Shown piece after piece: positions 1,682 through 64,000 of a stretch of DNA of 64,000 nucleotides. The notes beneath the pieces are model-generated. The model had not been told where the DNA came from. It made no database searches and saw only the letters and a program-made list of their open reading frames with translations. The stretch spans positions 34,278,033 through 34,342,032 of the forward strand of contig OY720344.1 in the NCBI GenBank assembly GCA_963082975.1, in the 5' to 3' direction. The DNA comes from Labia minor (lineage: Eukaryota > Arthropoda > Insecta > Dermaptera > Spongiphoridae). Position 1 is the first letter of the stretch. Every line of letters starts with the position of its first letter. Both the position numbers and the translations under genes were made by a program.

Positions 1682-1684
1682 AAG

Positions 1685-4248: not shown

Positions 4249-4280
4249 GGCTGATCCCTCAATCAAAAGACCTCGGAATC

Positions 4281-4292
4281 AGAGGGGGAGGA
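4281..4292 (+). other. Polypurine tract
   Basis: AGAGGGGGAGGA lies directly against the first base of the 3' LTR (4293). This is where plus-strand priming is expected in LTR retrotransposons. Confidence 0.88.
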
Positions 4293-5158
4293 TGTAACGG
4301 ACAAAGTATTTATATTCTTAGTTATTTTTTTTTATTATACATTTTATTTTGTTTATCTATTTTTTAGTTTATTTTGTTTTTCTATTCCCCTATTTTATTA
4401 ACAAAGTTATTTGGTCGCATTATTCTTAAAATGTAATATATATATAGATATTATATTTCACATAAGGGGAGGGACCATCCCTCCAAGTTTTAATATTTTT
4501 TAGATAGTTGAGAATGGACAGTGGAACTAGTGATATCATCCCGATATGACCTGTACTTATCACGTCCCGTGATATAATTATTTTGTATATAATCCTTTTT
4601 ATCATCACACCCTGTGATACAGTTTAACTAGTGATATCATCCCGATATGACCTGGTATTTATCACGTCCCGTGATATAATCATTTTGTATATAATCATTT
4701 TTATAATCACACCCTGTGATACAGTCGAACAAGTGATATCATCCTGATATAACCTATACTTATCACGTCCCGTGATATAATTATTTGTGTATAATCCTTT
4801 TTATCACCCCCTGTGATAATTATTTCTGCTAATTCCAGTGACAATAGTGAATTACATTTTCTTATTTTTTTCTATTTAAAATTTGTATATTTAATTTGTT
4901 AATTTTTTTATCTATTTAATTAAAGTAAATTAATGTGAACATTATTATTGTGTTTTCCCTTTTCCCTTAATTTTTCAACACTCTTTTATACTTTGGGATA
5001 TCCAAAGTTGGCGCCCATCATTAACTTAACATAATTAACAATTCACGGTCATCGTGGATCATTACAAGTGCCTCATACTTAGATCCCCTTATAAATTGGC
5101 ACCCAACATTAGAGGATCGTCTACAAAGTGACCCCAACTTGAAACGGTCCTCCTTACA
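4293..5158 (+). repeat. 3' long terminal repeat (866 bp)
   Basis: This LTR has the same length as the 5' copy and no difference was seen. It begins TGTAACGGAC and ends TTACA. The four bases after it (TATT) equal the four before the 5' LTR. Confidence 0.93.
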
Positions 5159-5400
5159 TATTTAATTATTTACAATATATACAAGAACATAAGTGATAAA
5201 GAAACGCATAAACAACATAAAAAATCACATAAGGGCTTAACATAAGTTTTATTATCATAAAGAGCCTATGCAATTCTTTATCATAACATAACATCTAAAA
5301 ATCTATAACGAGACAGCTTCAACTCGAAAGTTCGAGAAGGTATCCCATCATTCCGTGCGCTTTCTCCCGCACGAATTCAAATGATATATTTTTAATTTTT
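5159..5400 (-). other. Continuation of the interrupted outer element, possibly its LTR
   Basis: This is the sequence that lay next to 815 before the insertion. It has two short palindromes (CTCGAAAGTTCGAG near 5318 and a GTGCG...CGCAC pair near 5355) and a different base composition from the flanking AT-rich DNA. It may be the LTR of the minus-strand gag element, but without a second copy this is inference. Confidence 0.3.
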
Positions 5401-8400
5401 ATATATTAACAAAAAAAAGCTTACATAATAATAAAAATTTTATTAAACACATAAACTGACAAAAAAATTTTATCATGCAATAAAATTGATAGGTTAAGAG
5501 CTAAGAAAATAATATGTTATTATTTTTCACTTATATCAAAGTATGTATCAAAATTTAAAAGAATTTTTATTAAATTTACATAATATCAATCAAATCAAAA
5601 ATGATTGATTATATTAGAAGAAATAGTGTTACTTGTTAATGAAGTGTTTTAGTGTGGTATGATGTATATATATGAATAATAGCTCTATAAAGGAAGTTAA
5701 TGTCATAGAAATCAAATGAAAACTAAAAGCGCCCAACGTTTTTAGTTGAATATGAAGCAATTCATCCATAAACTTTGTCAGGCTTATAGAAAAATTATTT
5801 TATTCTTTTTAGTCCATTGGAAATGTTTTTTTTATATTAATATTATTTTATTCTTTTTATTGCAATTTTAATTTGTTAAAATTTATTTAATATATCAAGA
5901 GAAATATTTCTATTTACAAATTTCTAAAATCTATAAATTGAATAAAACAAAGAAATATATTAATCTTCCAAAATTGATTTTATGCATTTATGTTAAATAA
6001 ATGTTATTATTGAATAATAATTATTATATTAAATTTATAAATAAATAATTTTTATTAATATGAAATTTTATAAATGAATATATATAAATATATATAAGGG
6101 AATTTTGTAAATACAACCACATATTGATATTTGTTATTGTAAATTTATTCAAAAAAATACAAAAAATACACGTTTCATTGCTACTTCTGCAATCGTTATC
6201 AGGCGACTGCACTGTCCGAGCGTCCAGTGACGAAAGGTATATACATTAATATATATATAAATGTATATTTTATAAATAAATAAATAAATATATATATATT
6301 GTCTTCATAAAAATGCGGTGTGCACACTGTAAAATCGGGCTTGTGTGTGCGAGTGTGTAAGAACACTGTTTCAGAAGACTCATAAGACTGTTCCCCACCT
6401 GACTCATATTGTAAAATTTTCTCTCCGGGACATATAAAAAAAAGGTTCCTGATTGCCATTCTTCTATCCTTCTAGAGATCGATTGAAATACCTATACAAA
6501 TTTTCAAAAGACTCAATATTAAGATGATGAAAAATCGATTTCTATTTATCAAAAGAGCGAACAGACAGACAGACAGAGAGACAGACGCTAAGTGAAGTTG
6601 AGAAAAACCTTATAAAAATACGATAATACTAAGTTTTTGAAAAAAATTAATAAATATAATTATTACACACACATAAGAAAAATAGAAAGGATGATATTAC
6701 TCGCAATATTCTTAAGAACAATTCTTAAAATAATAATTCTTGATGAACCAGATATGATTAATTTATATAAACTAAAATTAATCATAACTATCTAAGAATT
6801 AGATTCTTTTATAAGAATAATCTTTAATTAAAACATAGTTTGGACTTCTTATTAACTGTTGGTGTAAAAACCGAAATGCGCATAAAGTAAATAATATAAC
6901 ATTACATTTTTTTAAATATCAAGAATCAATTAATCATTCCAAAAAAAATATTCTTTAAAATTTCAAATTATTCAAAATCGATATAAAAAGAAAAATTGGA
7001 AGATTGGAATGCAATTATTTATGCTATGTTTTATCTAAAAAAAAATCCATCGGTTAGTGATTAATTTGTTTCTTCTGATATAAATACGATCACTAATTAA
7101 TGGTTCTTATAATCTGAAACTCCTTCAATTTGTATGATTAAGAGATCGCCGGTCGAATTCGCATGCTTATTTATTAGCTGATTTATTCATCAATTGGCGG
7201 TCTCTAATGATCATCCGCGAGGCGTATGGTGTCTTTCTAAGATGTTGTTGTATGTAAGCTTGGTTGGATCTTGCGCCGTTTGCCGTTGGCAAGCTTTCAG
7301 GGAGGTCTCTCTCTCTCTTCATTTCGGAGCTGAAAGTTCAGGCCTCGTTGAGATGCATCGCCGTGAGATCATTTCATTCGCTACGCAGCCAAATGGCATT
7401 TTCTTTTAAGCTCCTAGAAACACTTTCAAGACTCGAAAATGAAAAAAAAACAACGTTGTATTTTTTTTGTTTTTGTTTCGTTTCTTTTTTAAGCAAGCAC
7501 TCAAGAGGATTCAATTACATTTAATAGGAGGTATTCGCAAATACACAAATCTAATATAAAACTTTTATTTCCACCCACTACTCAGTGAATGGCAAGCCTC
7601 AATTTGAAATTTATTTTATGAACCTATTTGAAAGTTTATAAATAATTCATGTAATATCGATATTCACTAAAATTCCCTCCTTTCGCCAATATATTATAAA
7701 TTTTACATTAAATTCAATTTATTGTAATTATTTAAAAAAAATATGGAAATAAAGATATTTCTATTTAATAATATATCAACTTTGAAATTGTTCGATTTTT
7801 TATTTATTTATTTATTTATTTATTTGAATTAATTTCCTTATTGAATGTCATTATTTCATAGAAAATTCAAGTGCTTTTATATTAAATAATCTATTTCTTG
7901 ATTAATTATTTATTTCCTATATTTTTTTTATTTGCTTGGTTTCACTTTTTTATCGATCAATGTCTATAATTCATCAAAAAAAAATATCGATTGACAACTT
8001 TAATTAATGAATTAAATATTCCAATAGTAAAATATGAATTAATAAAAAAAAATCGGTTTGAGATCAATATATAAATATGTATATTGAAATTAATCAAAAA
8101 TACAAAACGAAGATAATAATTATTTAAATACTAGTTTCAATTTGATTTCTTTTTTTGTGAAGAATATTGATAATTTTAAAAATTAAAAAAAGATTTTTTT
8201 TTATTGATATATTTATCTTGATTTTTTTTTATTTTTGACTATGTAATTATATTTTTTTTTTTTAAATTTCAATTAGGAAAATTTAAATGCGATGCATAAA
8301 TATAATGTCTAATTTATAATTGATATTCAAATATTCCATTTTTTTTTTATGGAAAAGTTTAATTATATATTTTATCTTTATTTTAAGAATAAATTCAAAC

Positions 8401-9144
8401 CATAAATAATAACCACCTTTAAATAATGTTTAGATTCTTACAAACTAAATAATGTAACGAGATTTTCTTTCATAATAATTATTTTAAAATAATAAATTTA
8501 TATTAATTATTCTGAAACAGCTTTATTAACATAAGAAAAAAAAATGAAAGATAACACCTTAAAGCTTAAAGACTAATTAGGTAGTTTAACCAGGGATGTA
8601 AAATCCATTCTCTAACAGTGTTCCTAAACCTTTCAATATTCGCGGCCCAGTTTTCAATTTTAATTTTACGATAAAATGTTTACAACAATAATGTATATTG
8701 TGTATTTTGGATTCTGTTTTCAAATTATTTTTAACTAATTCCCAAATCAAGAGCTTTTCTATTATTCAGTTAATTATTTTTTTTTAAATAATACTTTTCC
8801 TTTTTCTTTGATATTTTCGCCCCACAGAATTATATTTTATTTAGAAATAAAATTGATTTAAATAAATATTTGTATTTCTGGAAAATTTAAAAATCTGCTT
8901 AATAAAATATTAAAAACATTAACCAAAATAGATATTAAAATATTTTTCTTTCTTTATACCATTAAACGGAGTAACAATTCAATTATTAGGATCAATCGTT
9001 ATATTTTCTATTTTATAAACTATTATAGAATTACTTTATTTAAAATAAATTAGATTGAAAAAAATGTATCAAGATTCAACATTTCAATTCATTCCAGTTT
9101 TCTCAAAGCAAAAGTGAACAAAATTGTGATATAAAATTAAATAA
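5401..9144. other. AT-rich non-coding stretch with one repeat tail and one GC-richer island
   Basis: No supported gene is present. It consists mainly of A/T homopolymers and short TA or TTTA runs. About 6480-6620 has an AAATTTTC block followed by (ACAG)n, the style of tail seen on several transposons in this window. About 7140-7420 is less AT-rich and is listed separately. Confidence 0.6.
7140..7420. other. GC-richer complex island, candidate conserved non-coding DNA
   Basis: Surrounding DNA is mostly A/T runs, but this stretch is complex and appears single-copy in the window. It has AT-rich homeodomain-type cores (TTTATTAGC, GATTTATTCATCAATT) next to GC-rich blocks. A 71-codon frame covers part of it but shows no recognisable domain. 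A regulatory role is inference. Confidence 0.35.
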
Positions 9145-9762
9145 GTTGACCTGTGGCCAGGTCCGAACCGACCTACGGTTTGAAATAAATTAATTTCCAG
9201 CTACAGAAACAATTTCAAATAATTTTAATATATCTATTAATGTAATAAAAAAACAGATATGGATATAATATAAATATTTTTAATTTTATTTTATTTATAA
9301 TATATAAGGGCTGGCTGTGACGTCATGAAGGGCTGGGTGACGTCATATAATTTTAAATTAAGAAAAACATAATGAAGATGATTTTTCCCGAGGATAAAAC
9401 CAATACATTCGTGGTGATATGTAAAAAAATCTTCTCATGTGAAATTTGGTGTGAAAATAACCCTTTCCTTCCTATCGTCGATCGCTAATACTACCACTTC
9501 CGGTTTCCGGATTTGCACAAAAGTTGATCAATTCATCCCACTGATGCATTAAGTAAATATACCAAATTTCATCAAAATCCGTTGAGCCGTTCAGGCTGTA
9601 CACATCTATACGGACGGACAGACGGACGGACGGACAGACATTATGCTAAAAATACTTTTTTCTGTTAAGAAAATCCATAATTCGTGGTGATATGTAAAAA
9701 TCTCCACATGTGAAATTTGGTGTGAAAACAATACCTCCCTTACTATCGTCGGTCGGTAAAAA
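9145..9762 (-). mobile_element. HL-1 copy: Helentron-associated, DINE-1-like non-autonomous element
   Basis: Read on the minus strand it starts TTTTTACCGACCGACG. It then carries CCACTTCCGG (as the complement), a CCAAATTTCAT block and a GTCY-type tetranucleotide run (GTCTGTCCGTCCG). It ends with CGTAGGTCGGT, which is complementary to the start, followed by the hairpin GACCTGGCCACAGGTC and CAAC before a T. This order of short subterminal repeat, GTCY microsatellite, complementary repeat and 3' hairpin is the known plan of DINE-1/INE-1. No ORF is present. One base in the end repeat differs from the perfect copies at 33.8 and 43.3 kb. Confidence 0.72.
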
Positions 9763-11727
9763 TTATATTAATAAAAGTAAATATTATTAAATTTTTTATA
9801 ACCTACTTTAAAATAAAATAAAATACATCATTCAGAGTGATAAAAATTAAGAATAAAATAACTATTGTATATTAATATAGAATAATATATATATATAAAT
9901 ACTATTAATATATATTAGAAGTGTATTATTATAAATAATTTTTTTTCGAGATTAATTGAATAGAAGTTAAAAATATTAAAAACTATTTTAGACGAAAAAT
10001 TATTAATAAATTAAATAATATAATAATATATGAATGTACTAAATTATGGACCATGTATAATCCTATTCAAGCGTGGTACTAATATAAAAATAACAAAAAT
10101 TACTAAAAACCAAACAAAAATTGAAAATAAATTAATTTTATATTATTATTATTATATTTAATATTAAAATAAACACTTCAAATAAAAATAAAATACCCTC
10201 TTATTGAAGTGAAGCTGTGAATATCAATTCCTATAACTTTCTTCTAGATTCCAAGCGAAATAACACCGGTTTGGGTCCGGGGTAAATTAACTCAATTATA
10301 GCATCAATAAACTCATGATTCATGATCCATTTTTGAAAAGTTATTTTCTATAAACTATTATAATATTTTTATTATAATCAACTTTTCCAACAATTCAAAA
10401 TCATGTGTCTCTTTACAATCAGTTAATCAATCAATTTTTTACCGACCGACGATAGTAAGGGAGGTATTGTTTAATTAATATTTTTGAATTCTAGTGTGTT
10501 AGTGTCTCATTAGGAGGGTGTACTCACAGGGATAATACGAGTAAAATAATGTATTTGTAGTATTGATTAAATAATTATTAAAATACTTTGTAGTTAATAA
10601 TTTGTAACCCTAGTTTTTTTTTAAGATAATTCTAAACATAAAAAACAATGATTAGAGTTGACAACTGGTGGTGAATGCTTATTATTTATTTATTTATTTA
10701 TTTTAATACCTATGTAAAGAAATGTATTTAACTATTTAAGCTAAGAATGAGAAAAAAAACAAACAGATGAGTTTCTTTTTATCTGAGAGTTCGACAGATG
10801 CTAGCAGTTACTTTCTATAGTGCAAAATAATAATTAGCTAATGATATACACCAAGGTGTCTGGAAACCACCAATTAGACTGCTTCTCGCATGATTGAGTT
10901 CTCAAACTTTCAACCTTTATGAAGGTTTGAGTGACATACAATTATAGAACATATATATCACCGAGATATTCAGTTATCAAGATATAAATTATTTATCCAA
11001 TCATAAATAAGTATAATAAATTTATTAATATTAGAATATACAATACTATAATAATAAGCCAGAGAATATGAATAGTGTTGTTTTGAAGAGAGGGAAATTA
11101 AAAGAAATTGTTGTGCTTCAGAAAAACCCTAAAATTTAAATAACATATTATTATTTATTTATCTTTATGTAATTTTGAAATAAAAAGACTCTAAATTTTG
11201 CATAGATAGTTGTTTCCAAAGATAATCAATTATGAGTCATATTCAAAAGTTTGATAACAAATGAGAATTGATTCTTTAAAAAATATCTCTATGGAGTATA
11301 ACCCCAGACTGCAGAGTTGGCATATGCAAAATCACAGCTTTTGCAATATCAAAAAGGATGTAGAATAAAATTTAGTAGAAGATTAAATATTAGAGTAATT
11401 GGTTCTCGAAAGACATCCTACTTATATACCTAGACACTAACAATGTAAAGAAAATATAAGGGAATTAGAAGAAGAATAAAATTGGATGGAGATGGTAAAT
11501 AATGACAGATGCAAAGAATGTGGTTACTACGCCCAAGAACGTTCCGTTTCAATAGTTTACATACATAGATTGATAGATAGTTAAATAATTACTTTTAAGA
11601 ATATTCAAGGGCTAAGTTTTGTTTAAAATTTAATTGTAGAATTTATATTATGTATTTATCACTTTAAATAATATTAAAATGATTTCTATCACTCAACTTA
11701 TTTTGACTTCAATCCAACAATATTTAC
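9763..11727. other. AT-rich non-coding stretch
   Basis: No supported gene is present. It contains a 37-bp fragment of the HL-1 start at 10435-10471 and TTA/TTTA runs. A few less AT-rich lines at 10850-10930 and 11280-11530 could not be assigned. Confidence 0.6.
10435..10471 (+). repeat. Isolated 5' terminus of HL-1
   Basis: TTTTTTACCGACCGACGATAG and the next ~15 bases match the start of HL-1, then the match stops. No other part of the element follows. It could be a deletion remnant or an aborted insertion. Confidence 0.7.
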
Positions 11728-12018
11728 TCGTTACGCATACTTTTGTACAACCTACGCAAGGACAGCGCCTTTCAAGTCGGTTAGGGTACCTATAATCAGT
11801 AGAACGGGTCCTATCAACCCTTATCTTGATTTGCTTGATCGGAAGCGCTTTTTATCAAGTAACTTCCCAATTTTGATCCCGGAAATTGGGTTTACTCCGT
11901 TTCATAGACCCCAGCAAGAAAAATTTCCTTGCCAGGCCCTGGACTTAAACTAGAGACCACAAGAATGTGAGCCAACGCTGTTGCCTCCCACCCTGTGACG
12001 CCTTATCGTTACACATAC
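11728..12018 (-). mobile_element. tRNA-derived SINE with target-site duplication
   Basis: This is a diverged minus-strand copy of the SINE at 16518-16842. The shared blocks are the tRNA-like head (at the right end here), the GGGTCTATG block and the GGTTGATAGGACCCGT block. Its B box is weak (GTTTAAGTCC). The 13-bp flanks TCGTTACGCATAC (11728-11740) and TCGTTACACATAC (12006-12018) differ at one base and are read as a target-site duplication. Confidence 0.8.
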
Positions 12019-14005: not shown

Positions 14006-15391
14006 CATTAATTTAATTTTGGTATAAAACATTTTATAAGAATTTATTAATTACTTTGCACTGTTCATTTGAATCTCTTATCTCGGTTCAAAGAAATTGT
14101 TTTCAAAATATTATAAATAATATGTTAACAATTATAGTTATATATGAATAATTATTTAAGGGAGGAAAAAACGTACTAGAAAATAAATAAAAAATTGTTA
14201 TAGACGGGAGAAAAAAAAATTCATTGAGAAGTAAGATAAAACATAAATATATCTATTAATTGTTATATATATATGTATAAAAATATAAAAACATATATTA
14301 AAAAAATAAATAAATAAATAAATAGAGATATTTATAATTGTCATTAAAAGAAAACTAACCTCAATACACACAAATAGGAATTACGTATAAATTTAGACGT
14401 TTATAAAATTAAATGATTTTCAACGATTTTTAAAAGGAAAGTGAAATAAAAAGAAAAATAATGAAAAATAATGAGAATAACTTCTGATGACACACCTAAT
14501 CAGTCACAGCGTTTGGTAATATTAAAGGATAATTGAGGAAGAAGAAAAATTTTATTTTATTTTATTGTATTTTTTTTTTTTTTTGGCGAAATATATCCAG
14601 CATTTGTTGAAATAAAAATATCAAATCTAATCAAAAGAGTATTACTAATTGAACTAATTATATTAAATGTTAAAATTGAACTCTTTATTGATAAAAAAAA
14701 ATTATAAATTTTATTCTTTAATAAAATACGTCTTAAATTTATTTCCTTGGTGTTTCATTAATTTATATTTGTAATTTAAGAGTAATTTTCAAAATAATAA
14801 TTATTACTAAATCATTTGGATATAAAACTAATCACTGGTCACGATTTCAAAGACTAAGTAATTAAATTAATTTGAAAAAAAAATCTCTTTTTAGTAGAGT
14901 CATTCTATAAATTAAATAGTAAAATAAATAAAAATAGAAAAAAGAAAGTCAATAAGGTTAAGATATGTTAATTATGGTTTGTTTATAAATTATGATAGAA
15001 TTGTAGTTCAACTGAATTCAACCCCTCCATACTAATTAATTTAAAATGTAAAAAAATAATAAAATTTACAATAGAAATGGAAATGTCTAGGTGAAAGTGT
15101 CTTATTAGTTAGTTTCTCTCACACAAAAGGCTTTAAAATACAATTCTCCCAATCCTTCACTCATTTTTGTAATTCTTGAATATAATTATTATTTTATATG
15201 GGAATTAATTTTATAAATCGAATTAAAAATGTACATATGACAAGAATTAAAAAAAATTAAAAACAAGGAATTGGAATCTCTGTCAAATTTATTAATTGCT
15301 AGCCTCTAGTAAAATATAGCATAAAAACCCATTTGATTTATATTTTAACCAGCATTTATTTAAATTTAGGTATAATTGTTTTATTAAATAA
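14006..15391. other. AT-rich non-coding stretch
   Basis: No gene or recognisable repeat is visible. It has long T and A runs (for example 14568-14584) and many TAAT motifs. Confidence 0.6.
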
Positions 15392-15471
15392 GCGGGAGTG
15401 TCCTCCCCTAGACTTTCCCGCATATAAATAGGTATATTTAGAATGTAACTTCCGGTTAACTGATATTTTAA

Positions 15472-15997
15472 ATGTAAAAAAAAACAGATATGGATATAAT
15501 ATAAATATTTTTAATTTTATTTTATTTATAATATATAAGGGCTGGCTGTGACGTCATGAAGTGCTGGGTGACGTCATATAATTTTAAATTAAGAAAAAAC
15601 TAATGAAGATGATTTTTCTCGAGGATAAAGCCAATACAAAGTGCATAACACGTGGAGATATGCCTTCACGTGAAATTTGATATGAAAATAACCCTTCACT
15701 TCCTCTCTTCGATCGGCAATACTAGCACTTCCGGTTTCCGGATTTGCACCAAAAGTTGATCCATTCATCATACTGATACATTAAGTAAATATACCAAATT
15801 TCATCAAAATCCGTTGAGCCGTTCAAGCTGTACACATCTCTACGGACACACATCGGACGGACGGACAGACATCATGCTAAAAATACTTTTTTCTGTTAAG
15901 AAAATGCATTATTCGTGGAGATATGTACCTAAAAATATCCATAGGTGAAATTTGGTGTGAAAACAATACCCCCCTTACTATCGTCGGTCGGTAAAAA
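15472..15997 (-). mobile_element. HL-1 copy nested in HL-3, lacking its hairpin end
   Basis: It starts on the minus strand with TTTTTACCGACCGACG (15997) and follows the HL-1 sequence to a point within the AT-rich region before the complementary repeat. About 90 bp including the hairpin are missing. Its GTCY run is short. Confidence 0.75.
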
Positions 15998-16292
15998 GGA
16001 AACGCTACTTGTATAGGTAAAATGTCACTTCCGGTAGTCAGATCATGATGAAATTTGGTATCTGAATTTTTTTCATATTTTTAAATCTATATACAAAATA
16101 TGAAGCAAATATCTCGAAGCAAACTGGTACTTTACTTGAAAGGTAAACGCAACCAGAGTAGGTAAAGTACCACTTCCGGTTAACCGATTTTGACGAAATT
16201 TTGATAGAAATCTACAAACTGTGAATAATATCGGTGTACCAAATTTCGAAGTCCTAGCTTGATTAGTTTTTGAGTAAATTTGCTTACAGACA

Positions 16293-16293
<1 letters not shown>

Positions 16294-16323
<30 letters not shown>

Positions 16324-16381
16324 CATACATACATACATACATACATACATACATACATACATACATACATACACACACACA
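16294..16381 (+). repeat. Microsatellite (TACA)n followed by (CA)n
   Basis: About 19 units of TACA run from 16294, then five CA units. It occupies the same place in HL-3 as the GTCY run does in HL-1. ORFs reading YVCMYVCM or THTYIHTYI come from this tract and are not genes. Confidence 0.95.
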
Positions 16382-16517
16382 GACATAATTCCAAAAATGG
16401 TATTTTCCGACTCAGGTAGGTCTAAAACGTCAAGATCTATCAAAATCTCGAAGTCGAAATTTTTTACGATTCCAATACTTCCCTTATACGAAGTATGCGG
16501 GAAAGTAAAAATAATAA

Positions 16518-16842
16518 TTTTAAATATAACGGTAAGGCGCCTCAGGGTGAGAGGCTAGCGTCGCTGACTCACATTCTCGTGGTCCCGGGTTCAATTCCCG
16601 AGCCTGGCAAGGGAATTTCTCTAGCTGGGGTCTATGGGACGGAGTCAACCCAGCCTCCGGGATCAATATTGGGAAGCTACGTTATAAAAACTAGCGCCTC
16701 CAATCAAGAAAATCAAGGCAAAGGTTGATAGGACCCGTTATCATAGGACTATCATAGGACACCTAGTTGATATAACCGACTTGTTAGGCATTGTCCTTGC
16801 ATAGGACGTACAAAAGTCAGGTTTTTTTAAATATAACGGTAA
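16518..16842 (+). mobile_element. tRNA-derived SINE with 18-bp target-site duplication
   Basis: The body (16536-16824) starts with a tRNA-like head. GAGAGGCTAGCGTCGCTGAC resembles an A box, and GGTTCAATTCC is one base from the B-box consensus GGTTCGANNCC. A non-tRNA tail follows with GGGTCTATG and GTTGATAGGACCCG blocks and ends in a short T run. The flanks TTTTAAATATAACGGTAA (16518-16535 and 16825-16842) are identical. SINEs are moved by LINE enzymes, and the identical duplication suggests a fairly young insertion. Confidence 0.88.
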
Positions 16843-20344: not shown

Positions 20345-21199
20345 AAGAACTGTGGCCAAACACAGTACCGACCGATGATTTAAAACTAATTAAAAACAAC
20401 ATTATATATATTATTTCACAGTTAGTTTAATGTAATAGTTAATAATGGATTAGGGTCGAATTAAATTTTATATCATTTTTAATTCGACCTATACATATAT
20501 ATATATAATTATTATTATATTTAAGCCTCGACCGGACGCATGGAAAGCGAGCGCCAGGTACATAGTAGCAGCTCGCACGCTGGCTGCGTCATTGTGCCGG
20601 GATAATAAGCTATTTTGCGCGAGTTTAAAATTTTTAAATTCTTTATTTTTTTTTTTCTAAATCGCCCGCTTTAAGATGTCGATCGCCCACCAATCTCTTA
20701 GCGCTAGTATTCCATGAGTGTAATTTGAAATATTACATATATCGATTTTTTAGTAAAAATCAATTTTATGTAGAAAGTATAAAAAAATTTTAAAACTTGA
20801 ATTAAAATGACTAAATTATATTATCTTGGTTTTTATTTTTAGTTTAATTACTCAATTAATTATTAATTACTACTATATTTTAAGTGAAAAATTTCCGTCA
20901 ATGAATATAAAATTAAGTCTTTGTGAACTACCACTTCCGGTTTCCAGATATACACCAAAAGTTGATGAATTCATGTTACTGATGCATTAAGTAAATATAT
21001 CAAATTTTATCAAAATCCGTAGAGCCGTTCAAACTATACACTTCTATACGAACACACAATGGACAGACGGACAGACATCATGCTAAAAATACTTTTTTCT
21101 GTTAACAAAATGCATGATTCGTGGAGATATGTAAAACTCTTCACATGTGAAATTTGGTGTGAAAACTATACCTTCCTTTGTTATGATCGATTGGAAAAA
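20345..21199 (-). mobile_element. HL-1b copy, a diverged HL-1 subfamily, with internal insertion
   Basis: At the left is a hairpin (CTGTGGCCAAACACAG) followed by TACCGACCGATGA. At the right is a CCACTTCCGG block, a CAAATTTTATCAAAATCCG block, a GGACAGACGGACAGACA run and a degenerate end TATGATCGATTGG. Comparison with the minus-strand relative at 38825-39321 suggests about 330 bp (roughly 20430-20770) were inserted or deleted between the two copies. Confidence 0.65.
20454..20640. other. Hairpin and GC-rich structured block inside HL-1b
   Basis: GGTCGAATTAAA and its complement TTTTAATTCGACC (20454-20490) form a hairpin. Just after it, a GC-rich block has three complementary pairs: GACGCA/TGCGTC outermost, and GCGAGC/GCTCGC with GCCAG/CTGGC in interleaved order. 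The interleaving would make a pseudoknot if transcribed. It resembles no ribozyme I can name. Confidence 0.45.
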
Positions 21200-22046: not shown

Positions 22047-23177
22047 TCACTGGGAAAACCTTCTCCTTTCTCTTTTTCCACAAGAAACTTCATAAATACT
22101 ATTAGAGATACGGCTTATAATCTTAGCTGGTCCTATTCTTATTTCATCAAGTTTATTTCGATTGGTTTTATTTCCATTTTCCATATATACCATATCGCCA
22201 ACAGAAAATACATAGTCCTTCCGGTGTTTATCACATCTTAATATATTTCTATCATGATATGATATAAAATTTCTCATTGCTTGTGCCCGATCAGAATTTA
22301 AATCGTACTTCCAAGAAATCCCTATTGGAACAATATTAGGTTCATGCTCTCCTAACAGAAGGTATCTGGGTGTGAATTTTGTTAGACTATGAACTGTGCT
22401 GTTATATTCTGATGTGCATTCTTCTGCTATTTTTGTCCATGTTCGTTTCCTATCTTGACTGTTTATTTTACATTTGATACGATTAATCAATGTTTGAACT
22501 AATCGTTCATTCAAGCCATTTGATTGTGGACAATCTACTGATGTAAAGATTAAACTAACACCTTTTGAATTTAAATACTCTTTAAATTCCGTAGATTTAA
22601 TTCCGGCATATTGGTCGGCTAAAAGTATCTTCACGCTATTTTCCTTTAACACTGGATCTATAAAACGAATCAAATCTGTTGCAGTTTGTTCACTGGCTGC
22701 ACTCGTAAAAGCATATCTTGAGAAATGATCGGTGAAAATATGAAAATATTGTTTTGTCGAATTATTTCCCGCTAAATTCACCCACTGTATCGATGGACAT
22801 AATTTCATACGGTCTTGTTGCTGGACCTAAGTGCGATAACAACCCAATTGATCGTCCTCTTTTCAACTTATTTTTTTTTACATATTAGGCAGAAATTACA
22901 ATAGTCCATTACCAGTTTGTCCATTCTGAAAAAATAATAGTGAGGGCGTATCTGTAATACGATTTGATGCGAAACCAATATGTCCAAGCTGCCAATGTAC
23001 TTTGTTTATTAATTTGTGACCCAAATTTTGAGAAATTATAATTCTCTCGTTTCCTTTAATTTTCTTAAAAATCAATTCACCTTTCTTCTTTGTATGAGTT
23101 CCTTTTCTTATTTTATTTTCATTTTCTATTTGGCCACTTAAAATTTCCTGTAAAGTTATTAAATTTACAACTTTCAA
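22047..23177 (-). pseudogene. Integrase region (zinc-binding, catalytic core, GPY/F module) of the gypsy element
   Basis: The integrase would join element DNA to the genome. On the minus strand the zinc-binding half shows KVHWQLGHIGF, then a frameshift, then CNFCLICKK. The catalytic core follows: FTDHFSRYAF (first D), ILLADQYAGIKS (second D), then exactly 35 residues to GLNERLVQTL (E), so the D-D-35-E triad is intact. EIRIGPAKIISR near the C-terminus is the GPY/F module of this family. A frameshift just before NNSTKQYFHIF separates the uninterrupted 253-codon frame (22047-22808) from the upstream part. No chromodomain is visible. Confidence 0.88.
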
Positions 23178-24436: not shown

Positions 24437-25488
24437 TATATATAGTAGATAGATAGATATTTTCCCTTAATAACTAAAATATAATATTTGTATCTTTTAA
24501 AAATAATAATACTTAAATAAAAATAAAATTAGAGTCAAAACACATAAGATAAAATTAATTGAGAATAAAATACATATAAATAAAACAATTGCAATATTTC
24601 AATGGCATCTTAATTAGGAATAGCTAAGCTCTCTAAGAATATCATTATTCTATTTAAAGTTAATTATATTGAATAAATATGATGGTGTTTATTTAAAAAG
24701 TTATAGATTAAATTTTCCGATATAATCACTATACTTGTATAATGTAACCAGTCAATTATTCCATTCATTATATACCTTAAAATTTTATTTTAAAGATAGA
24801 AAAAAAAAATTTAAAACCAAGACTAAATTAATTTAAATTGTTTTAATACTACCGGTTTTATAAACATATACTAGTCAAAATTGATTAAAAAAATAATGAA
24901 AATATCAATGACGGTCAGTTTCCGTTTAAATGTATATTAATTCAACATATTAGTAAACATTTTATTTAAAAAATTACTATTCCCGGTAAAACAACTCTGA
25001 ATTTTAAAAGAATTTATTAGTAATTATAGATTATACAAATATATGATTTGCCACAGATATGTAAATTTCATAAACCAACTTCCTTTTTACTTGACCATGT
25101 TTATATATAAATATATATTATGTTGTTTTTTTGGTAACTCAGTTAATTGGATTTTTAATACCTTATTTGAATACAAATAAGTTTTTGCTTAGATATTTAT
25201 TATAAAATAAAATTCAAGTTATAAGGTATATAAGTATAGGGTAAAAAGGGAGAAATATATATATATATATAGTTTTTTTCAAAATGTATTAATAATAAAC
25301 AATATATATATATCAAGATAAATTTAAATTCAATTTTAAAATAAATTAAGAATAATTTAACTGTTTTATAAATATATAATTTTTTAATGTAAATAAAATT
25401 TATTTTTTTAATATATTCCAATTATTTCAAATAAAAAAAAATTATAACAATAATGTGAATTTAACAAAAGTTGGCACGGATTTATTTT
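24437..25488. other. AT-rich non-coding stretch
   Basis: No gene or recognisable repeat is visible. The 73-codon frame at 25200-25421 is built from TA-rich runs (Y, I, K, F) and is not supported. Confidence 0.6.
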
Positions 25489-32967: not shown

Positions 32968-33157
32968 CTGGGTTGTCTCCACTCGACTCTCTCGCAAATT
33001 TGAATTGGATTAATTAACATATATTATATTTAAATTAAATTTAATTAAATATAAATTATAAATTAAAATTAATAAATAATACTTATTAAACCAGGATCTT
33101 TGTTGATGACACCATGTCACGTGCTGGTGCGGGATTGGCAGTCAACATGTTAAATAA

Positions 33158-33752
33158 GCTGGAGTGTCTCCACTCGACTATCTCGCAATTTGAATTGGAT
33201 TAAATAACATAATATATTATATTTAAATTAAATTTAATTAATTATAAATTATAAATAATAAATATTAAACCATCGCATGTTTGGCTTTTTATTGATGGCA
33301 CCATGGCACGTGTTGGCGCGTGAGATTTGCAGTATTAAAAAATTAATTCTGGTACTTTCAGCAATTCAATCAAGCTGAAATTCTATATATAGCAGTTTTA
33401 TACAATTATTAATCATGTGAAAAATTATCAAACATATATTTTTATTTTTACGGTCACTTTAGAGGAAAAAAAATCAAAACGTTGTAGGTAATGACCCTCT
33501 TCCGGTTGAGCTACATTTCTCAAAAGTTGAAAGAAAACTATGAATTTTAAATAATGTCCATGTACCAAATTTCATCATTCTAGCTCAAACCGTTTTTGCG
33601 TAATCTTGTCTACATACATACACACGCACACAGACAGTTTTCTCAACCTTAATTGAAATGATTCAGGAATCTTCAAAACGTATAAAAACATCAAAATCTC
33701 GACATCGAAAATTTTCGTGATCTCAATACTATCTCTTACGAGATAGTAAAAA
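33158..33752 (-). mobile_element. HL-2 copy nested in HL-2
   Basis: On the minus strand it starts TTTTTACTATCTCG and ends GCGAGATAGTCGAGTGGAGACACTCC. The last part holds the terminal hairpin (GAGTG/CACTC). It splits the outer copy at the GTTAAA/TTTAAG point. Confidence 0.78.
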
Positions 33753-33820
33753 TTTAAGAAATTTCGGTATTTTCTACTATTCAATCAAGCTGAAATTCTA
33801 TATATAGCAGTTTTGTACAA

Positions 33821-34464
33821 TTTTTACCGACCGACGATAGTAAGGAAGGTATTGTTTTCACACCAAATTTCACATGTGGAGATTTTTACATATCTCCACG
33901 AATCATGCATTTTCTAAACAGAAAAAAGTATTTTTAGCATGATGTCTGTCCGTCCGTCCGTCTGTCCGTCTGTCCGTCCGTCCGTATAGATGTGTACAGC
34001 CTGAACGGCTCAACCGATTTTGATGAAATTTGGTATATTTACTTAATGCATCAGTGGGATGAATTGATCAACTTTTGGTGCAATTCCGGAAACCGGAAGT
34101 GGTAGTATTAGCGATCGACGATAGGAAGGAAAGGGTTATTTTCACACCAAAGGAGATTTTTTTATATATCACCACGAATCATGCACTTTGTATTGGTTTT
34201 ATCCTCGAGAAAAATCATATTTATTAGTTTTTTCTTGATTTAAAATTATATGACGTCATCCAGCCATTCATGACGTCACAGCCTGGTCTTGCATATATAT
34301 TATAAATAAAATAAAATTAAAAATGTTTATATTTATTATTTATGTATCCATATCTGTTTTTTATTACATTAATAGATATATTAAAATTATTTGAAATTGT
34401 TTCTGTAGCTGGAAATTAATTTATTTCAAACAGTCGGTCGGTTCGGACCTGGCCACAGGTCAAC
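33821..34464 (+). mobile_element. HL-1 copy nested in the outer HL-2
   Basis: It starts TTTTTACCGACCGACG. The GTCY run is well preserved (GTCTGTCCGTCCGTCC). It ends CGTCCG-type repeat GTCGGTCGGTTCGG, hairpin GACCTGGCCACAGGTC and CAAC. The HL-2 empty site reads ATACAATTATTAATC; the filled site reads GTACAA|TTTTTACC...CAAC|TTATTAATC. No target duplication is seen. Confidence 0.85.
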
Positions 34465-34831
34465 TTATTAATCATGTGAAAAATTATCAAACATATATCT
34501 TTATTTTTACGGTCATTTTAGAGGAGAAAAAATCAAAACGTGGTAGGTAATGACCCTCTTCCGGTTGAGCTACATTTCTCAAAAGTTGATAGAAAATTAC
34601 GAATTTTGAATAAATCCCGTGTACCAAATTTCATTATTCTAACTCAAACCGTTTTTGCGTTATCTTGCCTACATACACACACACACACACAGATACACAC
34701 ACAGAGTGACAGATATTTTTCTCAGCCTTAGTGAAAATGACTCAGGGATCTACAAAACGTATAAAAACATCAAAATCTCGACATCAAACATTTTCATGAT
34801 CGCAATACTATCTCTAGCGAGTTAGTAAAAA

Positions 34832-38824: not shown

Positions 38825-39321
38825 ATTATTACCGACCAACGATAGGAAGGGAAGATATTGTTTTCATTTTTACATATCTCCACGAATCATGCATGCATTT
38901 TGTAAACAAATAAAAGTATTTTTAGCATGATGTCTGTCCGTCTGTCCGCCTGTCCATTGTGTATTCGTGTATAACTTGAACGGCTCAACAGATTTTGATA
39001 AAATTTGGTATATTTACTTAATGCATCAGTACAATGAATTCATCAACTTTTGGTGTATATCCGCAAACTGGAAGTGGTAGTTTACAAAGTATTAATTTTA
39101 TATTCATTGTCGGAAATTCTTCACTGAAAAATATTATATTAATTAATAATTAATTGAGTGATTCAACTAAAAATAAAAAGCATGATAATATAATTTAGTA
39201 ATTTAAATTCAAGTTTTATTTTTTTTTTTTTTTTTTTTTGATACATTATATATATTTATAATGTTGTTTAGAAATTAATTTATTTCAAATCGTGGGTCGA
39301 TTCTGTGCATGGCACTAGTTC
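38825..39321 (+). mobile_element. HL-1b copy
   Basis: It starts TATTACCGACCAACGATAGG. It has the GTCTGTCCGTCTGTCCG run, the complement of CCACTTCCGG, and ends GTGGGTCGATTCTGTGCATGGCACTAG, the diverged complementary repeat and hairpin. It pairs with 20345-21199. Confidence 0.65.
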
Positions 39322-42504: not shown

Positions 42505-43061
42505 AGCTGTATAAATAACATATATAATATTTAAATTTAATTTAATTAATTATAAATTATAAATTAACATTAATAAATAATATGTATTAAACCAGTGCAT
42601 GTTTTGCTCTTTGTTGAGGGCACCACAACACGTGTTTGCGCGTGAGATTTGCAGTGTTTAAATAATTAATTCTGGTACTATCAGCGATTCAATCAAGCTA
42701 AAATTCTATATATAGCAGTTTTAAACAATTTTTAAAAATGTGAAAAATTATTAAACATATATCTTTATTTTTACGGTCACTTTAGAGGAGAACAAATGAT
42801 AACGTGGTAGGTAATGACCCTATTCCGGTTGAGCTACATTTCTCAAAAGTTGATAGAAAACTACGAATTTTGAATAATTCCAGTAGACCAAATTTCATGA
42901 TTCTAGCTCAAACCGTTTTTGCGTAATCTTGTCTACATACATACACACGCACACAGTTTTCTCAACCTTAGTTGAAATGATTCAGGAATCATCAATTCAT
43001 CAAAATCTCGACATCGAAAATTTTCGTGATAGCAATACTATCTCTGGCGAGAAAGTAAAAA
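42505..43061 (-). mobile_element. HL-2 copy lacking the hairpin and one subterminal repeat
   Basis: It follows HL-2 from the TATAAATAACAT block to GAGAAAGTAAAAA. About 40 bases after AAGCTG, which should hold the hairpin and ACTATCTCGC, are deleted. The outermost bases are still there. ACATACATACACACGCACAC is the microsatellite. Confidence 0.75.
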
Positions 43062-43314
43062 GGGAAATTGAAAAATTAGTATATATTATTTTCTTATGAC
43101 TTGGTTGATAAAAGGATGGAAAATCCTAACACCTTATAGTTACAAATGAAACCAATAAGAAAAAAATAACTTTACGATTTATGTTAAATCACATTTAAAT
43201 ATAAAATAATTTTATTAAATTTAAACAAAGATAAGGTTGTCATCTGATCTCCCTTTTAGAATCATATTGGTAGAGAAATGTTTTTTTTGTCATAACTCAT
43301 GGGTATATAAATAA

Positions 43315-43934
43315 GTTGACCTGTGGCCAGGTCCGAACCGACCGACGGTTTGAAATAAATTAATTTCCAGCTACAGAAACAATTTCAAATAATTTTAATA
43401 TATCTATTAATGTAATAAAAAACAGATAGGCATATAACATAAATATTTTTAATTTTATTTATAATATATATATGTAAGACCAGGCTGTGACGTCATGAAT
43501 GGCTGGATGACGTCATATAATTTTAAATTAAGAAAAAAACTAATAAAGATGATTTTTCTCGAGTATAAAACCACCACAAAGTGCATGATTCGTGGTGATA
43601 TGTAAAAATCTCCTCATGTGAAATTTGTTGTGAAAATAACCCTTCCCTTCCTAACGTCGATCGCTAATACTACCACTTCCGGTTTCCGGATTTGCACCAA
43701 AAGTTGATCAATTCATCCCACTGATGCATTAAGTAAATATACCAAATTTCATCAAAATCCGTTGAGCCGTTCAGGCTGTACACATCTATACGGACGGACG
43801 GACGGACAGACATCATGCTAAAAATACTTTTTTCTGTTAATAAAATGCATGATTCGTGGAGATATGTAAAAATCTCAACATGTGAAATTTGGTGTGAAAA
43901 CAATACCTCCCTCACTATCGTCGGTCGGTAAAAA
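43315..43934 (-). mobile_element. HL-1 copy, complete, with perfect subterminal repeats
   Basis: At the left, GTTGACCTGTGGCCAGGTC (hairpin) is followed by CGAACCGACCGACGG. At the right, CTATCGTCGGTCGG is followed by TAAAAA. The 11-bp repeats ACCGACCGACG and CGTCGGTCGGT pair perfectly. It is the best reference copy of HL-1 here. A frame of 81 codons crosses it but is not conserved as protein. Confidence 0.8.
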
Positions 43935-48653: not shown

Positions 48654-49078
48654 TTTCATTTTGTTAATTACCAACTTTTTTAATAGAATTATATATGGAG
48701 CAATGAAAAATTGAAATTTTATCTAATAAAATTAATTATTAATCTACTCATATAAATAGGTATATAATATAGAAACTTTAATTTTTTAAGATGGAAATTG
48801 GATATTCAGAAAAAATACGAACTTTTTGAATCCACCCAAACAGAAGAAAAAAGATTTTCAAAGGTCAATCCATATCTATATAAGAGTCACAAAAAATTAA
48901 ATAAAAAAGAAATAAAATATAAAGAACACAAAATATAATCGATGTAAAAATTATTAAATTATATTGAAGAAAAAGAAATTAAAAATTGATGAACAATGTG
49001 CCACGAATAGGAAAAAAGAATAAATGCTATTAATAAATATTACTGAATGGTACTTTATAAAAGAAAAAGTTGGAGTGT

Positions 49079-49659
49079 CTCCACTCGACTATATCGCAAA
49101 TATGAATTAGATTAAATAATATATATTAATTTAAATTAAATTAAATTATAAATTAAAATTAATAAATAATATTTATTAAACCAGAGCATGTTTTGCTCTT
49201 TGTTGATGGCACCACGTCGCGTGTTGGCGCGTGAGATTTGCAGTGTTAAAAAATTAATTCTGGTAATTTCAGAGAATCAATCAAGCTGAAATTATAGATA
49301 TAGCAGTTTTATACAATTATTAATCATGTGAAAAATTATCAAACATATATCTTTATTTTTACGGTCACTTTAGAAGAAAAAAATCAAAACGTGGTAGGTA
49401 ATGACCCTCTTCCGGTTGAGCTACATTTTTCAAAAGTTGATAGAAAACTACGAATTTTGAATAATGCTCATGTACCAAATTTCATCATTCTAGCTCAAAC
49501 CGTTTTTGCGTAATCTTGGTTAGATACATACATACACACACACAGACATTTTTCTCAATCTTAGTGAAAATGATTCAGGAACCTTCAAAACGTATAAAAA
49601 CATCAAAATCTCAACATCGAAAATTTTCGTGATCGCAATACTATCTCTTACTAAAAAAG
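49079..49659 (-). mobile_element. HL-2 copy
   Basis: The left end is GTTGGAGTGTCTCCACTCGAC (hairpin) followed by TATATCGC. It then has CTTCCGGTTGAGC, ACCAAATTTCATC and ACATACATACACACACAC. The right end is degenerate: TATCTCTTACTAAAAA with the repeat deleted. Confidence 0.75.
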
Positions 49660-50937
49660 GATTAATAGAAATAGAAATTTTGGAAGAAATTGAATTTTGT
49701 TCGATAGTGAAAATAAATTATTATTATTTATCAATTATACTATTAAGATTGGAAGTTTAATTAAACGTTCTCATATGAACAAACCCTCTCTCTCTCTCTC
49801 TCTTTTAGACAAATGAATATTACTGATCATTAGAGATTTTAATAGATTCATAAATTTCAACAAAGAGTAGACCACACTTTTATTAAATTACCCAGAATAA
49901 ATTTAAAATAATAAACATACCAAAAACAACTCTTTACTTATTTTTTAATTTAACAAAAGAAATAATAGATTAAAATAATCCATTGTATTAATAAAATAAG
50001 TAAAATATGAACCGGAAGAATCCAGTGGAATACTTATTAGTTTAGATGAGATATCAAAACAGACTGTCTGAGAAATAATAATGAAGGCCTAGTGTAGGTG
50101 ATTAGATATGATTACTAGATTCCCCCCCAATCTATATAGAAAGCTATTAATCATGGCAGGCTGGTGTTGTTGTGTGAATTAATGCCGACTATTAAGTTTC
50201 CGGGTATTGTTCTTCGGGCCGGGTATAGGCTCCCTTTTTGGATATCAGGCATTGAAATCGCCAAGGAATCAAACGTAATGAAGGCATCCGAATATATGCT
50301 TAGGGAATTTCAAAATGGAGAGAAATACATACACTGTTTTTATCTGATCCGTGAATGAAAATTTGCTTGAATAGATTTTAGAAACAAAAGAAAGATTTAA
50401 ATAAAAAATGCATAAGTTGTTGAAAATTTTGTAATATTATTATTTATTTTTTTTTTTTTCTCAATTGAATAGAAGATTGCTTTTGGTTTTGTTTTTAATG
50501 ATAACGGAAAAAAATAATAACGCAGACAAGATCGATTAATTAAAAAGATAGAAAAGGATCATTTAAAAAAAGATGGAAATTTAAAAGTGGAAATTATTTG
50601 ATATTTATCAGTGAAAAAAAAATGAAAAAGTAGCTAAATATATGCAAAAATAAATAAAAACTGAATAGAGATGTTATTTTTTAAAAAAAGAATAGAATCT
50701 TGTTTTATTTTTAATTTATTATAATGATAGGATTTAAACTCACCTGCCTATACATATTCTCTTCCTATTTACATGATCTATCCAAGATCTTATTTCACTA
50801 ATATAATAATAATTTTAATTAAAAATATATTTTTAAAGAAATAAATAAAATTAAAATTTTTAAATTTTTTATGATTATTTTTTTGTAATTCTACAAAATA
50901 TATAAAAATAATTATTCCAAAATTTATACTTTATACC
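49660..50937. other. AT-rich stretch with a GC-richer island at 50050-50370
   Basis: The island holds a 64-codon plus frame (50164-50358) with no recognisable domain. It has complex sequence such as TTCGGGCCGGGTATAGGC. The rest is AT-rich, with (CT)n at 49785. Confidence 0.4.
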
Positions 50938-51060
50938 TTTTACTATCTCGCCAGAGATAGTATTGCGATCAAGAAAATTTTCGATGTTGAGATTTTGATG
51001 TTTTTATACGTTTTGAAGTTTCTTGAATCATTTTCACTAAGATTGAGAAAAATGTCTGTT

Positions 51061-51097
<37 letters not shown>

Positions 51098-51568
51098 AGA
51101 CAAGTTTACGAAAAAACGGTTTGAGCTAGAATCATGAAATTTGGTACATGGGCATTATTCAAAATTCGTAGTTTTCTAACAACTTTTGATAAATATAGCT
51201 CAACTGGAAGAGGGTCATTACCTACAACGTTTTGATTTTTTTTACTCTAAAAAGTAACCGTAAAAATAAAGATATATCTTTTATAGTTTTTTCACATGAT
51301 TAAAAATTGTATAAAACTCCTATATATAGAATTTCAGCTTGATTCAATCCCTGAAAGTACCAGATTTAATTTTTTAACACTGCAAATCTCACATGCCAAC
51401 AAGTGACGTGGTGCCATCAACAAAAAGCCAAACATACGCTGGTTTAATAAATATTATTTATTAATATTAATTTATAATTTATAATTAATTAAATTTAATT
51501 TAAATATAATATATTATGTTATTTAATCCAATTCAAATTGCGAGATAGTCGAGTGGAGACACTCCAGC
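50938..51568 (+). mobile_element. HL-2 copy, complete
   Basis: It starts TTTTACTATCTCGCCAG and ends TTGCGAGATAGTCGAG, then the hairpin GTGGAGACACTCC and AGC before T. The 10-bp repeats pair perfectly. The microsatellite is (TC)n(TG)n at 51060-51098. Confidence 0.8.
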
Positions 51569-52010
51569 TAATTTTGTTTTAAATTTATTCTTTTAATTTA
51601 TACTTTATATACTTTAAATTAAAATATTTGAATAATATTATAAAAACAATTTGATTAAATTGGATTTGTAAACATTCTTTATGCGTAGTTTAGTAGTGAA
51701 ATTTGGAACTATTGATCTTGAGGAAGAGACTTAACTATAACCTAATCAAATTTACAAAAATTTTAATAATTTCATATTCAAGTGTAAATGAACTTAATTC
51801 TCAGAGGTTAATTAAAAAAACATTCTTATTTTATTATACTTCAAATACGTTGAAAAAACAAAAGAAACAATTTTTTATTAATTTGATAAAGAAATACCTC
51901 TATTATTATTTTGAATTTTATTTTTACTAAAAAATAAATTTTAATAAGGCAAAATTTAGGCACTGTCCATCAAGTGTGAATTTATATTTATAATATAATA
52001 TTTTATTTTA
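51569..52010. other. AT-rich non-coding stretch
   Basis: I see nothing that can be named here. A 75-codon frame (51703-51930) has no domain. Confidence 0.5.
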
Positions 52011-63280: not shown

Positions 63281-63717
63281 TGAACTCGTTCGTTTAATTT
63301 TATTTTCTATTTGCTGCTATGGCATTATTTTTCCCAATGAGATGAAAGCTTTTTTGCATATAAAAGAATATCTTTCCTTTCTATTAACTTATTTAATTAA
63401 ATGTTTTTATCTTTTTAAAAAGAACATTAAATTGATAGATTTTTTACTTATCGCGTAATCAATACAAGATTTTTAAATTTAATTATTTTTATTTTTTTTT
63501 TTTTTTTTTTTTTAATAAATTTATTATTATTATTATTATTATCTTATAATAAACGATTAATATAATGTTTTATTTGTGATTTTGATCAGGGGGAGGATGG
63601 CTTAAGTCTTGTAAAATTATTAAAGTTAAAATGTCTAATTAGGGATTTTATTTTATTAAATCATTTAATAAATGATACCTATAATATATATTTTAAATTA
63701 AACAAAGAAAAAATAAG
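63281..63717. other. AT-rich non-coding stretch
   Basis: There is nothing beyond a poly-T tract (63490-63513) and a (TTA)n run near 63520. Confidence 0.55.
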
Positions 63718-64000
63718 CTGGAGTGTCTCCACTCGACTATCTCGCAATTTGAATTGGATTAAATAACATAATATATTATATTTAAATTAAATTAAATTAA
63801 TTATAAATTATAAATAATAAATATTAAACCAGCGCATGTTTGGCTCTTTGTTGATGGCACCACGTCGCGTGTTGACGCGTGAGAATTGCAGTGTTAAAGA
63901 ATTAATTCTGGTAATTTCAGCGAATCAATCAAGCTGAAATTATATATATAGCAGTTTTATACAATTATTAATCATGTGAAAAATTATCAAATATATATCT
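63718..64000 (-). mobile_element. HL-2 copy, cut by the right edge
   Basis: It begins GCTGGAGTGTCTCCACTCGAC and then TATCTCGCAATTTG, and follows HL-2 up to the GTGAAAAATTATC block. The other terminus is outside the window. Confidence 0.78.

Follow-up and report, generated by a model that had tools for sequence, protein, structure and literature searches.

HL-1, HL-2 and HL-3 are three families of short repeats that are very probably non-autonomous Helentrons, HINE/DINE-1-like rolling-circle elements moved in trans by a Helentron protein. We analysed them in a window of 64,000 nucleotides and across the genome to which it belongs. Their match to DINE-1/Helentron elements, proposed in a first-pass annotation, is well supported by two-ended anatomy, copy number, insertion before TT, empty sites free of target-site duplications (TSDs), and a resident Rep-helicase element with HL-2 ends. 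Against this reading stand the weak endonuclease match of that element, which lies below the Pfam cut-off, and the finding of only one element with HL-2 ends. The HL families are further families of a known principle.

The structures of all three families are real. They follow a common plan of a TTTTT-AC start, a 10–13 bp pair of subterminal inverted repeats (subTIRs), a terminal stem-loop with CT[TA]A, and then TT, so that subTIRs stand at both ends and a stem-loop at the 3′ side, the HL-2 hairpin being ambiguous in register. The three subTIR pairs and the hairpin arms listed in the first-pass annotation are all present in the sequence. Sixteen HL-related pieces, together ~6.9 kb, lie in the window, bearing out an earlier count of at least 13 copies or fragments. 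Read from TTTTT, HL-3 runs through ACTTTCCCGCATA, GGGAAGT, the microsatellite, the GAAATTTGG and CCGGAAG blocks, a piece of HL-1, TATGCGGGAAAGT, the hairpin, GCTTA and TT; on window coordinates, ACTTTCCCGCATA is found at 15412 and its partner at 16494. HL-3 shares its outer plan with HL-1 (33821-34467) and HL-2 (50937-51571). The middle blocks had been annotated in reverse: from TTTTTAC, HL-2 and HL-3 present the subTIR, the microsatellite, the complement of CCAAATTTC, the complement of CTTCCGGTT, the 3′ subTIR and the hairpin.

Two features had gone unreported: HL-2 and HL-3 each have a 5′ inverted repeat (GAGATAGT and GGGAAGT, respectively) next to the subTIR, and HL-3 contains an HL-1 fragment. 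Judged from the alignment, HL-3 is a chimera carrying the 5′ 550 bp of HL-1, and the piece starts at HL-1's TTTTTACC. Among the HL-3 match rows, 38 of 41 align over positions 1-1120 or 1-1117 of the window copy at 91% or more; these rows come from the top 40 of 3,826 scored candidates, ranked on similarity to a query containing the HL-1 piece, and may therefore over-represent copies that carry it. Adjoining HL-3 at 16526-16840 is a tRNA-like repeat, a SINE by eye, with a 14–18 bp direct repeat TTTTAAATATAACGGTAA; ARAGORN found no tRNA in it. Relatives of this repeat occur at 11739-12011 and in loci L030, L044, L050, L051 and L058.

Folding predictions differed between the ends. As DNA, the HL-3 5′ end gave a fold equalled by 1 of 200 shuffles and the HL-2 5′ end one reached by none of 200, and the HL-1 5′ end folded no better than shuffles. 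At the other side, the fold of the last 24 nt of HL-1 was equalled once in 200 shuffles and that of the 32-nt HL-2 3′ end 26 times in 200. When the whole HL-3 3′ end is folded, its subTIR is predicted to pair with the right arm of the hairpin, instead of the hairpin forming as annotated. The HL-2 hairpin had been given as GAGTG/CACTC, which is one valid register (−3.1 kcal/mol alone); a second, TGGAG/CTCCA, is near-equal (−2.7 alone), is preferred in the longer 3′ end and aligns with GGGAG/CTCCC of HL-3. We withdrew a constant GNNA loop in all families (GCCA, GAGA, GACA), the HL-2 loop being ACA in the HL-3-aligned register, and dropped the 4-letter words common to hairpin and subTIR, of which roughly one per family is expected by chance. 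In HL-1, the pair annotated as 11 bp is present with 10 usable bp; position 11 is frequently altered in the 3′ copy. The HL-1 microsatellite is GTCC/GTCTGTCC. The HL-1 copy at 33821-34467 repeats its own 5′ 90 bp internally at 288-372 (76%), with a second subTIR-like word.

We scanned the window and loci L001-L077 by structure only (TTTA[CT] start, subTIR pair, hairpin, CT[TA]ATT). The 75 matches comprised 72 HL-1, HL-2 or HL-3 elements or mutated copies and three strays; the loci are mostly flanks of HL copies, and the scan says little on other families. Reversing the same sequence yielded no match. Across the genome, we counted 3,261 HL-3 3′ ends (1,655 + 1,606; ≤3 mismatches), 23,574 HL-2 3′ ends (11,634 + 11,940; ≤2 mismatches), about one per 25 kb, and 19,508 exact HL-1 5′ ends (9,757 + 9,751), a figure that omits ends having a G seven bases before TTTACC and includes some inside HL-3 copies. 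Genome-wide controls with the reversed end patterns gave zero for each family. The pattern TTTTTACR...YGTATTG, used to seek further sister families, returned 10,760 matches against 275 in the control; among the 100 matches listed, none was a new family and most were one internal HL-1 motif. The window also holds a 1,602-bp inverted repeat (25481-27082 and 35343-36944, 99.9% identity, 8.3 kb apart), a 259-codon open frame (22050-22826, minus strand) that by eye is retroelement integrase-like, and 866-bp identical direct repeats (816-1681 and 4293-5158) around two open frames (415 and 234 codons; 2296-4245), which look like a young LTR element.

Table 1 Positions of the window, the HL elements and their parts, and the autonomous element with its protein domains.
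Feature	Location	Strand	Remarks
Window	G000:C1:34278033-34342032		part of 604-Mb genome, 71 contigs
HL-3 element, complete	15389..16511	-	TTTTT start at high coordinate
HL-3 5′ T run TTTTT	16507..16511	-	T run ≥5 in 7/8 HL-3 copies
HL-3 5′ subTIR ACTTTCCCGCATA	16494..16506	-	
HL-3 5′ inverted repeat GGGAAGT	16477..16483	-	pairs with 5′ subTIR
HL-3 microsatellite	16285..16387	-	(TACA)n on + strand
HL-1 5′ fragment embedded in HL-3	15471..15997	-	HL-3 515-1041 vs HL-1 1-550, 85%
HL-3 3′ subTIR TATGCGGGAAAGT	15412..15424	-	
HL-3 3′ hairpin GGGAG-GACA-CTCCC	15394..15407	-	best fold of last 23 nt
HL-2 element, complete	50937..51571	+	
HL-2 5′ subTIR and inverted repeat ACTATCTC-GCCA-GAGATAGT	50942..50961	+	
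HL-2 3′ subTIR GCGAGATAGT	51540..51549	+	
HL-2 3′ hairpin	51551..51566	+	two registers, GAGTG-GAGA-CACTC or TGGAG-ACA-CTCCA
HL-2 copy	33747..34830	-	interrupted by HL-1
HL-2 fragment	32968..33142	-	3′ part
HL-2 copy	33154..33751	-	
HL-2 copy	42512..43060	-	
HL-2 copy	49068..49648	-	
HL-2 copy	63713..64000	-	cut by window end
HL-1 element, complete	33821..34467	+	inserted in HL-2 copy
HL-1 5′ subTIR ACCGACCGAC	33826..33835	+	
HL-1 3′ subTIR GTCGGTCGGT	34433..34442	+	
HL-1 3′ hairpin GACCTG-GCCA-CAGGTC	34446..34461	+	
HL-1 copy	9140..9762	-	
HL-1 copy	43310..43934	-	
HL-1 fragment	20927..21178	-	
HL-1 fragments	38826..39303	+	two pieces
HL-1 5′ stub	10436..10472	+	
Autonomous element	G000:C1:47862609-47874782	-	12,174 bp (12.2 kb)
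Open frame of autonomous element	L072:392-6889	-	2,165 aa
DUF6570	residues 324-454 of 2,165-aa protein		
Helitron_like_N	residues 634-760 of 2,165-aa protein		84.6 bits
PIF1	residues 1233-1452 of 2,165-aa protein		109.8 bits
Exo_endo_phos_2, weak	residues 1827-1912		E 0.0013 whole protein, 6e-5 on piece; both below Pfam cut-off

Comparing the families revealed how closely two of them are related. The subTIRs had been described as different in each family, yet HL-2 ACTATCTCGC and HL-3 ACTTTCCCGC differ at only two of ten positions (4 and 7), and their 3′ words, GCGAGATAGT and GCGGGAAAGT, differ at exactly the paired positions, so that both changes from HL-2 to HL-3 are compensated. The 5′ inverted repeat tracks these changes with one base missing. 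In the TGGAG register of HL-2, which aligns with HL-3, the two stems have GGAG/CTCC in common, so that the change between them reduces to a single compensated pair at the outer end rather than a new stem. Stretches common to HL-2 and HL-3 at 78% (41 bp) and 71% (135 bp) make these two sisters. HL-1 is more distant; its hairpin is unrelated in sequence to theirs and folds well.

Within families, we found no such signal. Across 28 HL-2 copies (280 subTIR cells), 15 cells had changed on the 5′ side only, four on the 3′ side only and one on both, the last being a CpG transition pair. Eight HL-3 copies showed no subTIR change. The 78 scanned HL-1 rows held one cell changed on both sides, unpaired; the HL-1 5′ differences come mostly from its internal repeat, which inflates the pair counts. 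Compensated hairpin cells numbered zero in the scanned copies of all three families. Genome-wide, a change at base two of the originally annotated stem, with the pattern otherwise intact, occurs in 124 HL-2 3′ ends; among the 41 listed, the partner was unchanged in 39 (nine forming a G-T wobble), changed and unpaired in two, and compensating in none.

The earlier claim that both partners change together thus holds between families and not within them, and the covariation reading is half supported. Between families, covariation is partly built in because subTIRs are defined as inverted repeats. Within families, missing compensation neither proves nor refutes selection on pairing because immobile copies are not expected to compensate; dead copies decay uncompensated, and therefore any signal would come from a few active lineages and amounts to three families. 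Selection on pairing itself cannot be separated from protein recognition, as one Rep reading both repeats predicts the same pattern. Direct base pairing in transposition, between the two subTIRs or between a subTIR and the 5′ inverted repeat, is possible as an alternative to one protein reading both, if on the doubtful side. Speaking for it are the two substitutions that separate the HL-2 and HL-3 5′ subTIRs, each with its counterpart in the 3′ subTIR and for the most part also in the 5′ inverted repeat, and the well-folding 5′ ends of HL-2 and HL-3; the uncompensated changes within families, an HL-1 5′ end that folds no better than shuffles and the equal prediction from a shared binding site speak against it.

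The first-pass annotation had called for an autonomous Helentron with the ends of one of these families, and we found one such element, with HL-2 ends. Our Rep search (Pfam PF14214) gave 104 matches; we examined sequence around six of the Rep loci, limited at two of these to the downstream side of the gene, and 600 bp by one decayed protein copy. Rep and helicase lie in one 2,165-aa protein, in which PHEHIFLWL and YVLKYVSK, read by eye, are what we take to be the Rep HUH and tyrosine motifs. An endonuclease-like region occupies the expected C-terminal place, its best PDB sequence match being an unrelated protein at E 0.87. Taken alone, the last 155 residues match Peptidase_C48 weakly (E 0.001, below cut-off) and PDB sentrin-specific protease 8 at E 0.007, with a QQNxYDCG stretch; Peptidase_C48 was not listed in a whole-protein scan to E 1. 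The HL-2 5′ 520 bp (87%) starts 4.4 kb upstream of the open frame and the HL-2 3′ end (41 bp, 100%) lies 1.3 kb downstream; a piece of HL-1 sits in the 5′ part of the element. At seven Rep loci, the pieces we read contained neither an HL-1 nor an HL-3 pair of ends and yielded only this HL-1 piece; L075 and L076 had no HL ends at ≤2 mismatches. Decayed relatives of the protein occur on C1 (near 44.69-44.70 Mb) and C60 (90-98%) and on C10 near 37.19 Mb (77-90%), with distant ones at 31-60%, among them relatives at 52% and 38% (C2:66.56 Mb and C63), and a 97% stop-free copy of residues 2020-2165 lies at C1:44694181-44694618.

We considered whether this arrangement is a chance neighbourhood, in which an unrelated Helentron gene happens to be flanked by two independent HL-2 pieces, a truncated 5′ one and a 3′ one. 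HL-2 pieces are everywhere, and the 600 bp downstream of the second, decayed protein copy contained no HL-2 end, both of which favour coincidence. The two pieces are nonetheless correctly oriented, and each lacks exactly the opposite end. At just 41 bp and full identity, the 3′ piece is unlike 48 of the 51 HL-2 3′ ends in the pool, in which HL-2 body extends upstream for 100 nt or more. (Among the remaining three, two are HL-2-like by eye and the third belongs to the 12.2-kb element itself.) Coincidence is improbable on this evidence.

Other Rep loci bear on whether the HL families are canonical Helitrons with 5′-TC, 3′-CTRR and insertion at A^T. We set aside L069, L070 and L071, whose Rep-helicase proteins have no endonuclease match, one of them being cut short. 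The L069 frame (926-5884; 1,652 aa) shares its profile score of 195.7 bits with six other places, and this same-scoring set suggests a recently active Helitron. Downstream of this frame, at L069 7212-7868, lies an HL-2 inverted dimer of two 3′ halves head to head, which we did not count as the end of the L069 element. A canonical identity would fit the many HL-2 copies in which the 3′ hairpin is followed by CTAA, a form of CTRR, as well as the seven places where a Rep match comes with an open frame of 1,651-1,655 aa; the one scanned has Rep and helicase and no endonuclease. It is very unlikely, however, for elements that start with TTTTTAC, end in CTTA as well as CTAA followed by TT, carry inverted subterminal pairs and share HL-2 ends with a protein that has a C-terminal endonuclease-like region, albeit by a weak match; the canonical combination of ends and target was not found in the HL families.

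Insertion sites are consistent with Helentron movement. TT followed CT[TA]A in all 66 two-ended copies (39/39 HL-1, 19/19 HL-2 and 8/8 HL-3), a count confined to copies with a recognisable CT[TA]A end. At the 5′ boundary, a T run of at least five was present in 36/39 HL-1, 11/19 HL-2 and 7/8 HL-3 two-ended copies, and in 99 of 100 HL-1 ends listed genome-wide. Abutting direct repeats in two-ended copies were distributed as in shuffles, giving no general TSD; the exception was a 7-bp abutting repeat at a single HL-2 copy, against 0.05 expected by shuffling. Testing 70 insertions for empty sites gave 26 with a junction-spanning match, of which we discounted roughly half as A+T-rich and low in identity. 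The good matches (84-94%), including six HL-1 copies and one HL-3 copy inside HL-2, showed no TSD. Consistent TSDs, named in the first-pass annotation as what would refute its reading, were not found in these copies or at these empty sites. MITE-like cut-and-paste elements with subterminal inverted repeats, which the short, non-coding, high-copy form, the inverted repeats near both ends and the single 7-bp repeat might recall, are scarcely credible given ends that are asymmetric with CT[TA]A on the 3′ side only, a Rep-helicase element with both HL-2 ends, the lack of TSDs above shuffled expectation or at empty sites, and the failure to find terminal inverted repeats with a fixed TSD.

Individual sites resolved the junctions further. 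The window HL-1 interrupts HL-2 at TACAATT, where an uninterrupted window HL-2 copy has TACAATTATTAATC. A second repeat, empty at 3,760 places by pattern, has GATAYACAATTCTTTAATT in 97 and ACAATT at the site in 98 of 100 listed; at L021 it carries HL-1 as ACAATT[TTTACC...CTTA]TTTAATT. This filled site is without the C, which means the loss or replacement of one base, or of as many as three under other assignments of the Ts. One to three T-rich bases seem to be lost at some insertion sites, blurring target edges; in passages of PMC4067079, the T-rich targets of HINEs likewise leave boundary bases ambiguous. In a first HL-1 sample, ACAAT preceded TTTACC in 21 of 40 copies, and one body deletion was present in 19 of these 21 versus 5 of the 19 others. 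We ruled out ACAATT as a 5′ transduction from HL-2, as empty sites natively carry it. We also rejected a 6-bp target preference as mostly ascertainment, because the sample query began with TACAATT and only 5 of 100 unselected HL-1 ends listed have ACAATT, one of these with six Ts.

Under the Helentron reading, a protein with fused HUH-type Rep, PIF1 helicase and endonuclease would act on HL elements in trans. Rep would recognise the T run, the subTIR and the 5′ hairpin and would nick; the helicase would then peel off one strand, the 3′ subTIR with stem-loop and CT[TA]A may act as the stop signal, and the endonuclease would open a T-rich target. The subTIRs of each family most likely stay complementary because one protein reads both ends, the alternative being that the two pair. 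By analogy, a role of the HL hairpin as stop signal is supported by experiments on Helraiser, a canonical Helitron: in passages of PMC4778049, the 3′ hairpin is the termination signal, a foreign stem keeps ~90% of activity and an altered loop does not. Helraiser/Helibat differs in its TC/CTAG ends, and those passages make no mention of subTIRs or an endonuclease.

Known Helentron relatives share much of this anatomy. As described in parts of Yang and Barbash (2008; PMC2374699), who published the compensation argument for DINE-1, the Drosophila element has subterminal inverted repeats with a partial inverted repeat beside the 5′ one, a variable microsatellite in the 5′ block (GTCY-rich, compared with GTCC/GTCTGTCC in HL-1), a 3′ stem-loop whose sequence differs between species with pairing kept, and the same TT preference without TSD. 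Its 13-bp subTIRs are of the ATACCCGTTACTC type, unlike ACCGACCGAC, ACTATCTCGC and ACTTTCCCGC of HL-1, HL-2 and HL-3, and, going by the same parts, three families side by side in one genome set the HL elements apart. Sections of Thomas et al. (2014; PMC4067079) define Helentron families by subTIRs with at least 11 bp identical and pair HINEs with autonomous elements; in Metaseiulus, Culex and Drosophila, non-coding elements share ends with a Rep/helicase/endonuclease element, with a variable T run at the boundary and no target modification. Relative to those sections, HL-3 differs in carrying an HL-1 piece, and the HL-2 partner in its weak C-terminal Ulp1-like (C48) match, where the paper speaks of OTU-type proteases; it uses the term 'Helentron' and does not mention 'Ulp1'. 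We did not find the Helentron domain set with an Ulp1-like part in the literature searched, which is no proof of absence, and works naming both 'Helitron' and 'Ulp1' exist.

We tentatively suggest, as a reading that is rather unlikely as it stands, that one Helentron lineage switched its end recognition naturally and that HL-2 and HL-3 preserve the trace of this switch, two bp of a 10-bp word having changed together in the 5′ and 3′ subTIRs and nearly so in the 5′ inverted repeat, along with a compensated outer pair of the hairpin, and that the HL-2 master would be a Rep-helicase-endonuclease-Ulp1-like fusion. For annotation, the HL families explain a large repeat load: HL-2 contributes more than 23,000 ends and HL-1, partly within HL-3 copies, about 19,500. 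Together, three non-coding families, of which two have almost the same recognition word, and a single candidate driver whose reading frame is open form a matched set that lets protein contact versus pairing at Helentron ends be tested directly.
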